Positions 16,640 to 28,611 of a DNA stretch of 64,000 nucleotides are shown here, in pieces. Below the pieces are notes generated by a model. That model ran no database searches, had not been told where the DNA came from, and was given only the letters and a program-made list of their open reading frames with translations. Source of the DNA: Dongia sedimenti. GTDB taxonomy: Bacteria; Pseudomonadota; Alphaproteobacteria; Dongiales; Dongiaceae. The stretch covers positions 248,001-312,000 of the forward strand of contig JAUYVI010000004.1 in the NCBI GenBank assembly GCA_030715195.1, given 5' to 3'. The stretch's first letter is position 1. Each line of letters opens with the position of its first letter. Position numbers and translations under genes: made by a program.

Positions 16640-17707
16640 ATGAAACTGTCATTGCAATTGGCAGCGGGCGCCGCTGTCCTCACTTCGGCCAGCGCGATCG
16701 CGCTGGCCGCCGATTGGTATCCGTACAAGATCGAGGTCTGGGACAGCTTCGACATGGCGAGCGCGCGCCATTCGATGGATTACAGCCCGGTCGAGAAGGC
16801 CGCGGCCAAGCACAAGATCTGCGTCTCCTTCCCGCATATGAAGGACGATTACTGGCTGGCGGTCGATTACGGCGTGATCGCCGAAGCCAAGCGCACCGGC
16901 GTGGCCATGCAGGTGCTGGAAGCCGGCGGCTATACTGAGCTCAACAAGCAGATCAGCCAGATCGAGAACTGCGTCGCCGGCGGCGCGCAGGCGGTGATCA
17001 TCGGCGCCATCTCGTTCGACGGCTTGAACAACCTGGTCGGCCAGCTCGCCGACAAGAAGATCCCGGTGATCGATGTCATCAACGGCATCTCCTCCGACAA
17101 GGTCACGGCGAAGTCGCTGGTCTCCTTCGGCGAAATGGGCGGCAAGGCCGGCGAATACCTGGTGAAGCTGCACCCGAAGGGCGGCACCCCGGCGAAGGTG
17201 GCCTGGTTCCCCGGACCGGCGGGCGCCGGCTGGGTCGAGGCCGGCAATACCGGCTTCACCACCGCGGTCAAGGAAGGCGCCATCGAGGTGGTCGACACCA
17301 AGTACGGCGACACCGGCAAGGAAGCGCAGCTGGCCCTGCTCGAGGACGCGCTGACCGCGCATCCCGACATCAACTACATCGTCGGCACCGCGGTCACCGC
17401 GGAAGCGGCGATGCAGCTGGTCCGCGACCGCGGCCTCGAGGACAAGGTGAAGATCCTTTCCTACTACTTCACCCCGGGCGTCTACGAGGGCATCAAGCGC
17501 GGCCGCATCATGGCGGCGCCGACCGATTCCGCGGTCATCCAGGGCCGGGTCGCCGTCGATCAGGCGGTCCGCGTCATCGAAGGCAAGGAGTTCCAGAAGC
17601 ACGTCGGGCCTGCGCTCTACGTGATCGACTCCTCGAACGTGAACAACTTCGACCGCGACTCCTCGCTGGCGCCGGACGGCTTCAAGCCGGAATTCTCGGT
17701 CGAGTAG
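16640..17707 (+). CDS. TorT-like periplasmic substrate-binding protein
   Basis: A 355-residue type 1 periplasmic binding protein with a signal peptide (MKLSLQLAAG, cleavage after ALA near residue 24). It resembles E. coli TorT along its length: PHMKDDYWLAVDYG for TorT's YPSLKDSYWLSLNYG, VLEAGGYTELNKQ, and GTAVTAEAAM for GTAIAAEAAM. TorT senses trimethylamine N-oxide with the TorS kinase. Here no torS is present; the gene is followed 9 bases on by a ribose-type ATPase and a permease, so it is best read as the importer's binding protein. A GGGAG ribosome site selects the ATG at 16640. Confidence 0.85.
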   Translation: MKLSLQLAAGAAVLTSASAIALAADWYPYKIEVWDSFDMASARHSMDYSPVEKAAAKHKICVSFPHMKDDYWLAVDYGVIAEAKRTGVAMQVLEAGGYTELNKQISQIENCVAGGAQAVIIGAISFDGLNNLVGQLADKKIPVIDVINGISSDKVTAKSLVSFGEMGGKAGEYLVKLHPKGGTPAKVAWFPGPAGAGWVEAGNTGFTTAVKEGAIEVVDTKYGDTGKEAQLALLEDALTAHPDINYIVGTAVTAEAAMQLVRDRGLEDKVKILSYYFTPGVYEGIKRGRIMAAPTDSAVIQGRVAVDQAVRVIEGKEFQKHVGPALYVIDSSNVNNFDRDSSLAPDGFKPEFSVE

Positions 17708-17716
17708 GAGTCCCGC

Positions 17717-19273
17717 GTGATCGCGCCGACCTCAGACGCGATTGTCCAGCAGCCCGGCGGTGCTCCCAGCGCCGCCGGGACGCTGCTCCTGGAGACCAAG
17801 GGTCTCTCCAAGCACTATCCCGGCGTCGACGCCCTGGTCGATGTCGATTTCGAATTGCGGGCCGGCGAGGTCCACGCTTTGTTCGGCGAGAACGGCGCCG
17901 GCAAATCGACGCTGATCTCGATCCTGGCCGGCGCCAATACGCCGACCCGCGGCGAGATCCGGTTTCGCGGCGCGCCGCTGGTGCATGCCGATGTCGGGGC
18001 GGCCCGGGCGCGCGGCATCTCCGCCGTGTTCCAGGAATTCTCCCTGGTGCCGCAGCTCACCATCGCCGAGAACCTGTTTCTGGGCGATGAGCCGGTGCGG
18101 CACGGCTTCCTCGACCGCCGCAACGAATTGAAGCACGCCCGCGAACTGCTGGAGCGCCTCGGCTTTGCGCTCGACGCCGATCGCCGGGTGCAGGAGCTCT
18201 CTCGCGCCGAGCAGCAGATGGTCGAGATCGCCAAGGCTTTCCGTGGCGATCTCTCGGTGCTGATCCTCGACGAACCCACCGCCTCGCTCACCGAGCGCGA
18301 GACCGAGAGCCTGTTCGCCCTGATCCGCCAAGCCAAGGCCAAGGGCGTCGGCATCATCTACATCACCCACCGCATGGTGGAGCTCCGCCGCATCGCCGAC
18401 CGCGTCACCGTCTTGCGCGACGGCCGCAAGGTCGGGCTGGTCGACGCCCATGCCGCCGACGAGGCGACGCTGATTCAGATGATGTCCGGCCGCCCGATCT
18501 CCCAGGTCTTCCCGAAGGTGAACTACGCGCCGGGCGAGACCCTGCTCTCGATCGAGCGCCTGACCACTGCCGACGGCGCGGTGCGCGATGTCAGCCTCGC
18601 GGTGAAGGCCGGCGAGATCGTCGGCATCGCCGGCCTGGTCGGCTGCGGTAAATCCGAGGTGGCGCGCGCCTGCTACGGGCTACTGCCGGTCGCCAAGGGC
18701 CGCGTGCTGTTCTGCGGCCAGGACGTGACCGGCTGGAAGACCCGCCGCATGCTCGATGCCGGTTTCAGCTACCTGCCGCCCGACCGCCACAAGGAAGGTC
18801 TGGTCCTGGCGCGGAGCGCCATCGAGAACACCTCGCTCTCCGCGCTGCATCTGCCGCAATTCTCCGGCAACGTCTTCCTGAAGCGAAAACAGGAGAAGGA
18901 CACGGTCTCGCGCCTCGCCGACCAGCTCAAGCTGCACCCCTTCGACCTGCAGCGCGAGATGGCCGCCTTCTCCGGCGGCAACCAGCAGAAGGTTCTGATC
19001 GCCAAGATGCTGACTCGCGATGTGAAGCTCTTCGTATTCGACGAACCGACCGTCGGCGTCGATGTCTCGACCCGGGTCGCGATCTACCGCCTGATCGCCG
19101 ATCTCTGCGAGGCCGGCGCTGGCGTGCTGCTGATTTCCTCCGACCTGCCGGAAGTGCTGCACCTCTGCAACCGCGCTTACGTCATGTTCCGCGGCCATGT
19201 GCAGGTGGAGCTGCAGGGCAACCAGATCACCGAGGACCGCGTGTTGTCCCATTTCTTCGAGAGAGCCGCATGA
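17717..19273 (+). CDS. Sugar-type ABC transporter ATP-binding protein (RbsA/MglA type)
   Basis: A 518-residue double ATPase. The first nucleotide domain has Walker A GENGAGKST (K63), with signature region LSRAEQQMVEIAKA. The second has the degenerate Walker A GLVGCGKSE and signature FSGGNQQKVLIAKM, as is normal for this family. A GTG start with a GGAG site 9 bases after the binding-protein stop was chosen. It powers uptake through the permease encoded in the overlapping next gene. Confidence 0.92.
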   Translation: MIAPTSDAIVQQPGGAPSAAGTLLLETKGLSKHYPGVDALVDVDFELRAGEVHALFGENGAGKSTLISILAGANTPTRGEIRFRGAPLVHADVGAARARGISAVFQEFSLVPQLTIAENLFLGDEPVRHGFLDRRNELKHARELLERLGFALDADRRVQELSRAEQQMVEIAKAFRGDLSVLILDEPTASLTERETESLFALIRQAKAKGVGIIYITHRMVELRRIADRVTVLRDGRKVGLVDAHAADEATLIQMMSGRPISQVFPKVNYAPGETLLSIERLTTADGAVRDVSLAVKAGEIVGIAGLVGCGKSEVARACYGLLPVAKGRVLFCGQDVTGWKTRRMLDAGFSYLPPDRHKEGLVLARSAIENTSLSALHLPQFSGNVFLKRKQEKDTVSRLADQLKLHPFDLQREMAAFSGGNQQKVLIAKMLTRDVKLFVFDEPTVGVDVSTRVAIYRLIADLCEAGAGVLLISSDLPEVLHLCNRAYVMFRGHVQVELQGNQITEDRVLSHFFERAA

Positions 19274-27533: not shown

Positions 27534-27585
27534 CTTCCACGCGGTTTGGTGCCAGACTCCGGCCATAACTCAGCCAGAGCGCGCC

Positions 27586-28611
27586 ATGGATCAGACCGAG
27601 AAACGCCCCAGCACTGCCTTCACCTCGATCGACTACGACAAGAAAGGCAAGCAGGCGGGCTTCATCATGATCCCGCATTCGCCGCATGAGGATGCCTGGG
27701 GCGCGACCCGGGTGCCGATCGCGGTGATCGCCAACGGCACCGGTCCCACCGTCATCATCGAGGGCGGCAATCACGGCGACGAATACGAAGGTCCGATCGC
27801 CATCGCCGAACTGATCCGCGATCTCGATCCGGGCGCGATCCAGGGCCGCCTGATCCTGCTGCCGGCGATCAACGTCAACGCGGCGATGGCGGGGGCCCGC
27901 ACCTCGCCGGTCGATGGGCTCAACTTCAACCGCGTCTTCCCGGGCGATCCGCATGGCTCGATCACCCAGCAGATCGCGGCCTATATGATGGACGTGCTGT
28001 TCCCGATGGGCGACGCCTTCCTGGATCTCCATTCCGGCGGCTCCTCGCTCGACCTGCTGCCGAGCGCCATCATCGAGCCCTCGCCCGATCCGGAGCTGCG
28101 CCGCAAGAACATTGAGGCGGCGAAAGCCTTCGACGCGCCGCTGACCGTGGTCATCGACAACATGGGCGACCCGCGCACCGCGACCGCCGCGGCCTGCCGC
28201 GCTGGCCTGATCACCACCGGCACTGAGATGGCGGGCGGCGGCACAGTGCGGCCCGAGGCGCTGGCGATCTGCCGCCGCGGCGTCAGGAACGTGCTGGCCC
28301 ATCTCGGCGTGCTGCCGCCGTCGGAGAAGGCATCCGCGCGCAACGACGGCAAGCTGCTGGAGCTGCCCGGCGCCGAAGCGCATGTCTTCGCGACCATGGA
28401 CGGCATCTTCGAGCCGTTCCACACGCACGGCCGCGAAGTCCACGCGGGCGAAGCCGCCGGCCGCATCCACTGCACCTGGGATCCGACCAAGCCGCCGGAG
28501 ACCATGCACTACCAGGCCGACGGGATTCTCTATGGCCTGCGCCAGCCGGGCCGCGTCCGACCGGGCAATTGCTGCGCGGTCGTGGCGGCGCCTTACAGCG
28601 GCACGCTCTAA
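27586..28611 (+). CDS. Succinylglutamate desuccinylase/aspartoacylase family zinc deacylase
   Basis: A 341-residue M14-type zinc hydrolase. Zinc ligands are H63 and E66 in [10 protein letters not shown] and H149 in FLDLHSGG. It resembles N-alpha-acetyl-diaminobutyrate deacetylase (DoeB) in length and layout and probably removes an acyl group from an amine. It ends the operon, 52 bases after the molybdoenzyme. Its TAA stop overlaps the stop codon of the convergent liuA gene. A role in the last amide-cleavage step of the same pathway is an inference. Confidence 0.8.

Follow-up and report, generated by a model that had tools for sequence, protein, structure and literature searches.

A five-gene core joining PxpABC homologues with a biotin carboxylase and a biotin carrier, and its possible role in lactam opening

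What reaction would call for homologues of the three 5-oxoprolinase subunits, PxpA, PxpB, and PxpC, to be combined with a biotin carboxylase (BC) and a biotin carboxyl carrier protein (BCCP)? The question is raised by a 64,000-nt stretch of the Dongia sedimenti genome (contig positions 248001-312000; genome G000 in our numbering), hereafter the window, in whose coordinates positions are given below. From sequence alone, it had been predicted that eleven same-strand genes at 16640-28611 form an operon that joins these five with an importer, BioY, a molybdenum hydroxylase, and a zinc deacylase, and that the five make up a split urea-carboxylase-like enzyme with PxpA as a possible hydrolase. The eleven genes are borne out by the open reading frames (ORFs), all on the + strand, and by their overlaps and gaps of up to 57 bases (9, -4, 17, 21, 4, 19, -11, 57, 6, and 52 bases, successively), and family scans agree with the gene names, refining them to a TorT-like binding protein, a long PxpB (291 aa), a CoxL-like subunit, and a DoeB-like deacylase. 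With a probability of about 0.57, we propose that the five core proteins would constitute a biotin-dependent amidolyase, N-carboxylating a cyclic amide (lactam) so that PxpA can open the ring.

The extent of the conserved unit was assessed by comparing related loci. Orthologues of the window PxpB (68-88% identical, apart from its own) are found in 20 genomes, the window's own included, out of a sample of 385 from the class; one of these (G027), in which the gene lies on a 4.7-kb contig, was left out of the flank comparison, and the class set consists of 18 of the resulting loci with flanks. A second set is made up of 80 named loci, mostly from alphaproteobacteria, which are the best PxpB matches among the matches listed and are not independent (L091 and L093 share an identical C-terminal stretch of PxpB), and a third of 14 loci from the phylum. 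The three sets overlap (L033/L118, L039/L134, L100/L205, L108/L208, L117/L206), and their counts are not additive. The sole outside check is provided by 20 neighborhoods of classical PxpABC genes from the same class (controls). The five genes are present together in 18/18 class loci, and neither BC nor BCCP finds a match in the 20 classical neighborhoods, even at E 1e-5. Among the named loci, best BLAST matches were obtained for BC in 78, PxpA in 75, BCCP in 74 (75 with L116), and PxpB and PxpC in 79 each, with a profile search recovering both PxpB and PxpC in 80/80. The same five loci account for the misses of PxpA and for five of those of BCCP, all being contigs that end just upstream (L070, L092, L108, L111, L137), and the sixth BCCP miss is L116, where carrier and BC match within a single open frame; BC is missed in L092, on a cut contig, and in L096, which is the sole gap in this set not explained in such a way. 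Because the core five co-occur while the other window genes vary, the conserved unit is PxpA, BCCP, BC, PxpB, and PxpC, five genes rather than eleven.

Variations on this unit are also seen. The core five are rearranged in Rubrobacter, Haladaptatus, Rhodococcus RHA1, and Agrobacterium rubi plasmids. Ruegeria sp. TM1040 and Rhizobium johnstonii 3841 are among the strains with annotated loci. The single frame in Jiella pelagia (L116:8326-10005) is a possible natural fusion of carrier and BC, and in Mesorhizobium plurifarium (L125) the LysR gene of the core has a PxpA gene on each side (5531-6319 and 7460-8344). Another example is a sister group, F81 (L051-L058 in genomes G081, G196, G289, and G367; also L050 in G337). 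Four genomes of this family have 4 to 6 PxpB matches each; one locus (L051) holds PxpA, BC, PxpB, PxpC, and a carrier together, and the extra pairs lie near CapA/CapB-like genes. Possibly, one BC and carrier would serve several carboxyltransferases in these genomes.

The carboxyltransferase pair groups with urea carboxylase and not with the PxpBC of 5-oxoprolinase. The window PxpB scores 120 bits with the urea carboxylase model versus 67.7 with the PxpB model, and both subunits are under the 5-oxoprolinase equivalog cut-offs (67.7 versus 145.55 bits for PxpB, 220.6 versus 500 bits for PxpC). In a tree built on concatenated PxpB and PxpC (37 rows out of 61 aligned; a fast search with no bootstrap and with the root left open), 16 classical pairs are split by a branch with an SH-aLRT of 99 from urea carboxylases (5), F81 (5), and the core family (11), the Escherichia coli pair sitting on a long branch whose placement was flagged as unsure by the program. 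There are 14 positions in PxpB and 9 in PxpC that urea carboxylase and the core family have in common and that the classical pairs lack. In a residue test that is partly circular, as the positions had been picked from an earlier alignment, K173, Y174, Y204, and Q205 of PxpB are present in 80/80 named loci and in 5/5 urea carboxylases, and they are kept in all of nine plasmid loci with the sole exception of Q205 in RHA1, while at these four positions the classical loci (20) show R, mostly R, mostly W, and mostly H, respectively; D243 of PxpC is found in 77/80 named loci and likewise in 5/5 urea carboxylases, and S at this position in 20/20 classical loci. The AlphaFold model of the window PxpB, searched with Foldseek, finds Kluyveromyces lactis urea amidolyase/carboxylase at the top (TMq 0.69-0.70), with PxpB-type structures at 0.29-0.48; as its mean pLDDT is only 72, with residues 175-205 (the C-I-Y region) under 50, the model supports the fold and not the active site. 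The urea carboxylase model TIGR02712 describes a fused protein of 1201 positions, and single window subunits reach 25.1 to 512.8 bits with it, all below its cut-off of 1303.85, but all four urea-carboxylase parts (BC, biotinyl domain, CT A/B, and CT C/D) are present in the window as separate genes.

The closeness of the pair to urea carboxylase would also suit a split carboxylase of urea, guanidine, or another acyclic amide, with PxpA standing in for allophanate hydrolase, and in one report urea is guessed as the substrate for biotin carboxyltransferase genes of Pelagibacterales/HIMB59 (PMC10308929). We consider such a function quite improbable, given that the unit conserves PxpA, which in the known system takes part in opening a lactam, and that CapA-like lactamase genes recur near the core.

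PxpA was compared, in E. coli numbering, across 94 members of the core family, the window included, and against 13 classical loci and E. coli. D8, E11, H33, D36, H57, D62, R68, Q85, H102, K104, H106, E158, D162, Y165, H218, and D220 are kept in 94/94. Both R174 and N111 are found in 0/94, S replaces G219 in all, and R163 is retained in only 18/94; seven further PxpA proteins from F81 and plasmids follow suit (R174 in 0/7, R163 in 1/7). This pattern suggests that the hydrolytic center is the same but that its pocket has changed, as would suit a substrate or intermediate unlike that of 5-oxoprolinase. It also bears on the possibility that the core is a 5-oxoprolinase (pyroglutamase) to which biotin has been added, converting 5-oxoproline into glutamate. 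Homologues of all three subunits are present, the window PxpA passes NF003814 (279.1 bits, cut-off 226), and no other PxpB-type protein (PF02682) is found in the window genome. Nevertheless, 5-oxoproline is an unlikely substrate, because PxpB and PxpC miss the curated cut-offs, PxpA differs, R174 being absent in 94/94, and a classical-type PxpB coexists with the core in three genomes (G131, G096, and G339, the last at 133.6 bits, under the cut-off of 145.55); the CapA-like genes nearby also argue against it. Elsewhere, the window genome encodes a 1211-aa fused protein of the HyuAB type, a shape known from eukaryotic-type 5-oxoprolinases. With this protein in the window genome and a classical-type PxpB in the three others, the core need not be the 5-oxoprolinase of the cell.

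The BC and BCCP of the operon both look active. Eleven BC positions (K117, K159, E201, H209, K237, E275, E289, N291, R293, E297, and R339), which presumably correspond to active-site residues of E. coli AccC, are invariant in 73/73 aligned sequences, and the carrier motif E-[VI]-M-K-[ST]-[FY] is present in 75/75. As BC is encoded at three other places in the window genome, and a second BC/BCCP pair lies on contig C5, the pair in the operon is a dedicated one, separate from the housekeeping pair. Public annotation has it as part of acetyl-CoA carboxylase, which would be in line with an acyl-CoA carboxylase merely sharing an operon with ordinary PxpABC. However, family scans recognize no carboxyltransferase of the AccA/AccD type among the eleven genes, BC and BCCP accompany PxpBC of the urea-carboxylase type and are not found in the 20 classical loci, and a separate pair is available at C5; the acetyl-CoA carboxylase assignment was rejected on these grounds, and an acyl-CoA carboxylase of any kind seems very improbable.

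Gene content, conservation, phylogenetic placement, residues, and neighboring genes are the observations from which we infer the complex, the N-carboxylation, the step by PxpA, and the substrate. In the proposed reaction, BC would use ATP and bicarbonate to carboxylate biotin on the 78-aa carrier, and the PxpB/PxpC-type pair, a two-piece carboxyltransferase of the urea-carboxylase type, would, by homology to urea carboxylase, pass the carboxyl onto the ring nitrogen of the lactam. PxpA, by homology, would then hydrolyze the activated C-N bond of the ring, and the resulting N-carboxy-amino acid (a carbamate) would be expected to shed CO2 spontaneously, leaving the amino acid. The net reaction would convert lactam and ATP into an amino acid, with CO2 serving as an activating group that is removed again. 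The ABC importer and BioY of the window would feed the system, and its molybdenum hydroxylase may, but need not, convert a cyclic imine or an N-heterocycle into the lactam.

As to the substrate, a lactam is the likeliest because CapA-like genes neighbor the core. Such genes, which like other neighbor queries were chosen after the core loci had been inspected, are found within approximately 10 kb of the core in 40/80 named, 5/18 class, and 2/14 phylum loci and in 0/20 controls, one of the five class loci (L032) belonging to the window's own genus. In the named set, 39/41 CapA-cluster members and 38/38 CapB-cluster members share the strand of the core. Of eleven CapA proteins scanned, nine reach 1222-1258 bits with the curated caprolactamase model (cut-off 1000), and two from Bradyrhizobium fall short of it (476 and 484). 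Among the genes near the core, a clear excess over the controls is seen only for CapA/CapB, the TorT-like binding protein, BC, and BCCP. Probably, the lactam is a small one other than 5-oxoproline; that it is of the 2-pyrrolidinone type, giving gamma-aminobutyric acid (GABA), is a weakly supported guess. Close homologues of GabT (at least 45% identical) are near the core in 4/80 and GabD in 3/80 named loci, each in 0/20 controls; in A. rubi and Ruegeria TM1040, the neighbors of the core include annotated GabT genes, and in Paenarthrobacter and Haladaptatus other aminotransferase genes. Overall, the co-occurrence of the five genes, the placement of the carboxyltransferase pair, and the distribution of CapA (40/80 versus 0/20) support the original prediction of a split urea-carboxylase-like enzyme acting with PxpA.

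A number of observations speak against the proposed amidolyase. R163 is still carried by 18/94 of the core-family PxpA, and 10 positions in PxpB and 6 in PxpC are common to the classical pairs and the core family while being absent from urea carboxylase. No BC match is found across the 20.9 kb of L096. Within 12 kb, Paenarthrobacter (L177) shows neither BC nor a carrier, and Natribaculum (L181) neither BC nor PxpA. In one genus outside the class, two loci (L211 and L213, in G695 and G596) have the arrangement LysR-PxpA-PxpB-PxpC without BC and BCCP; their carboxyltransferase residues are intact, and the two genomes show only other BC/BCCP genes elsewhere, so either housekeeping BC and BCCP would serve these loci or biotin would be dispensable. 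In half of the named loci, a neighboring lactamase gene is lacking, and the window operon itself has neither CapAB nor GabT. Apart from CapAB, the hints at a pathway are weak: GabT-like aminotransferases counted at 25% identity are near 11/80 named loci versus 3/20 controls, which is no clear excess. Likewise, any molybdenum hydroxylase, counted at an equal threshold (25% identity, E 1e-8, 35% coverage), is present near 11/80 named, 3/18 class, and 1/14 phylum loci, in overlapping sets, versus 2/20 controls.

From frequency alone, no link between the core and molybdenum hydroxylases follows, since the last figures amount to no clear excess. A link is favored, instead, by the kinship of the hits, which form two close groups (the two in the controls being distant, 34 and 42%), and by the repeated adjacency of one of them to the core. 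Relatives of the window subunit (54-76% identical) lie beside the core in 5/80 named and 2/18 class loci, immediately ahead of PxpA in L067 and in L068 of Aestuariivirga sp. YIM B02566, and immediately behind PxpC or BioY in L046, L047, L071, L075, and L087, with a more remote one (43%) after the core in Rubrobacter (L178). The second group, 66-87% identical to the subunit of L080, is represented in L088, L099, L112, L118, and L125. In L080 itself, the core, an FAD subunit, a molybdenum subunit, GabT, and GabD follow in sequence on one strand, which suggests a route from cyclic imine to lactam to a GABA-type amino acid to a semialdehyde. That bacteria and archaea possess a second, biotin-based means of lactam opening, fed in some operons by a molybdenum hydroxylase along such a route, is a tentative extension of the amidolyase proposal, and one that we would not yet bet on. 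The original prediction had an N-heterocycle hydroxylated to a lactam; this step is possible but weak, the two close groups beside the core being in its favor and the frequency not. A broader version, overlapping with our proposal, in which a larger N-heterocycle of the pyridine, pyrimidine, or betaine type is made a lactam by the molybdenum hydroxylase before carboxylation, gains from both groups of neighbors but appears rather unlikely, with no molybdenum hydroxylase found in 69/80 named loci and with no gene for an FAD or Fe-S subunit beside that of the window, FAD-type subunits being encoded elsewhere in the genome. An aerobic CO dehydrogenase was also considered for the window subunit and rejected, the TIGR02416 score being 651.6 bits versus a cut-off of 991.15 and no partner subunits being adjacent; the motif of form I CoxL is AYXCSFR, versus AYRGAGR here.

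The layout of the operon is given in Table 1. The run ends at 28611, as the next gene downstream (28608-29777, an acyl-CoA dehydrogenase) is convergent with it. The true start of the LysR-type regulator is probably near 16442, because its helix-turn-helix begins only at residue 75. A promoter scan returned 1 hit versus 1.2 expected, and a terminator scan, with counts at chance level, gave one + strand site in the run, inside the ABC ATPase gene, and none in any of its intergenic gaps.

Table 1. Genes of the window operon and the divergent regulator, in window coordinates
Feature	Position	Strand	Evidence and remarks
LysR-type regulator	15519..16652	-	Pfam; divergent from the eleven-gene run
TorT-like periplasmic substrate-binding protein (accessory importer)	16640..17707	+	NF008185, 411.6 bits (cut-off 200)
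ABC ATPase, sugar-import type (accessory importer)	17717..19273	+	Family scans
ABC permease (accessory importer)	19270..20295	+	Family scans
PxpA-like, LamB/YcsF (core; proposed ring-opening hydrolase)	20313..21041	+	PF03746, 303.8 bits
Biotin carrier, BCCP, 78 aa (core)	21063..21299	+	NF005457, 118.7 bits (cut-off 87); biotinylation motif E-V-M-K-S-F
Biotin carboxylase, BC, AccC-type (core)	21304..22674	+	NF009471, 772.1 bits (cut-off 686)
PxpB-like carboxyltransferase, CT_C_D, 291 aa (core)	22694..23569	+	Family scans; urea-carboxylase type, subdomains C/D
PxpC-like carboxyltransferase, CT_A_B (core)	23559..24533	+	Family scans; urea-carboxylase type, subdomains A/B
BioY biotin transporter component (accessory)	24591..25142	+	PF02632, 121.7 bits (cut-off 25)
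CoxL-like/Xdh-type molybdenum hydroxylase large subunit	25149..27533	+	PF02738/PF20256/PF01315; AYRGAGR at residue 376
DoeB-like (AstE/AspA-type) zinc deacylase	27586..28611	+	TIGR02994, 278.5 bits (under the cut-off of 402.7)

The genes around the core are variably present. The TorT-like binding protein is found in 33/80 named loci and 0/20 controls, the ABC ATPase in 33/80, the permease in 32/80, and LysR in 54/80. BioY is present in 20/80; it prompted the thought of biotin itself as the substrate, which was set aside, as BioY would more simply be a matter of cofactor supply and is not found in 60/80 named loci. Relatives of the DoeB-like deacylase are present in 0/80 named, 0/18 class, and 0/14 phylum loci, and deacylation, which had been predicted, was rejected on this ground as a step of the pathway; the gene is probably a passenger, found in the window only. 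Further downstream, the segment at 28608-40516 encodes an acyl-CoA dehydrogenase, an indolepyruvate ferredoxin oxidoreductase-like protein, parts of an acyl-CoA carboxylase, an enoyl-CoA hydratase, an HMG-CoA lyase, and an acyl-CoA ligase, and looks like a leucine-type catabolic cluster. In other organisms, the core of an A. rubi plasmid (L180) has beside it genes for F420 biosynthesis (cofC, cofD, cofE, cofH, and npdG) and an LLM oxidoreductase, unexpected on a Rhizobiaceae plasmid, and that of Rhodococcus jostii RHA1 pRHL2 (L179) adjoins duplicated bacterial microcompartment genes, an aminotransferase, and an aldehyde dehydrogenase.

Among known systems, urea carboxylase/urea amidolyase (K. 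lactis 3VA7 and 5I8I; TIGR02712) shares with the core BC, the biotinyl domain, both carboxyltransferase subdomains, and the carboxyltransferase residues K-Y, Y-Q, and G-P-S-D-Y, and it is the best structural match; the core differs in being made of four separate polypeptides and a PxpA partner, and its PxpB and PxpC are only 27-30% and 36-40% identical, respectively, to those of five alphaproteobacterial urea carboxylases. The PxpABC 5-oxoprolinases (E. coli pxpBCA, Bacillus subtilis, Corynebacterium glutamicum) share the three subunit homologues and the invariant PxpA core residues, but the core adds BC and BCCP, has carboxyltransferase residues of the urea-carboxylase type, has lost PxpA arginines, and falls on the other side of the tree. 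Lactam opening by CapAB caprolactamase and OplAB requires ATP and bicarbonate (PMC8453981, PMC11033972), and carboxyphosphate, not carboxybiotin, has been proposed for it in the literature. The dependence on ATP and bicarbonate would be common to these enzymes and the core, for which it is proposed from the genes, but the protein families are different and biotin is not involved in CapAB and OplAB. PDB entry 9YX5 (Mycobacterium smegmatis long-chain acyl-CoA carboxylase with MSMEG_0435-MSMEG_0436) has, by its title, a PxpBC-like pair on a biotin carboxylase complex; in the Foldseek search, its PxpB-like chain aligns with the window PxpB at 19% identity and comes after urea carboxylase in rank. 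Pseudomonas aeruginosa PA0492-PA0496 is presumably an operon of the same kind. PA0493 is described as biotin-requiring and PA0494 as 55% identical to AccC, with the precise function given as unknown (PMC5521831, PMC6249292).

In conclusion, no prior account of the core system was found in the open-access literature, and we class it as a new variation on the chemistry of the urea-carboxylase type, a member of neither urea carboxylase nor 5-oxoprolinase. If the proposal is true, the known tasks of biotin-dependent carboxylases would come to include amide cleavage, with CO2 as no more than a transient handle, and a set of genes that occurs in proteobacteria, actinobacteria, and haloarchaea would acquire a testable function, with annotations as acetyl-CoA carboxylase, allophanate hydrolase, and 5-oxoprolinase corrected in many genomes. 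It would also provide an enzyme for lactams, such as nylon monomers and pyrrolidone-type solvents, and it would raise the question of why ordinary PxpBC, a relative of carboxyltransferases, works without biotin.

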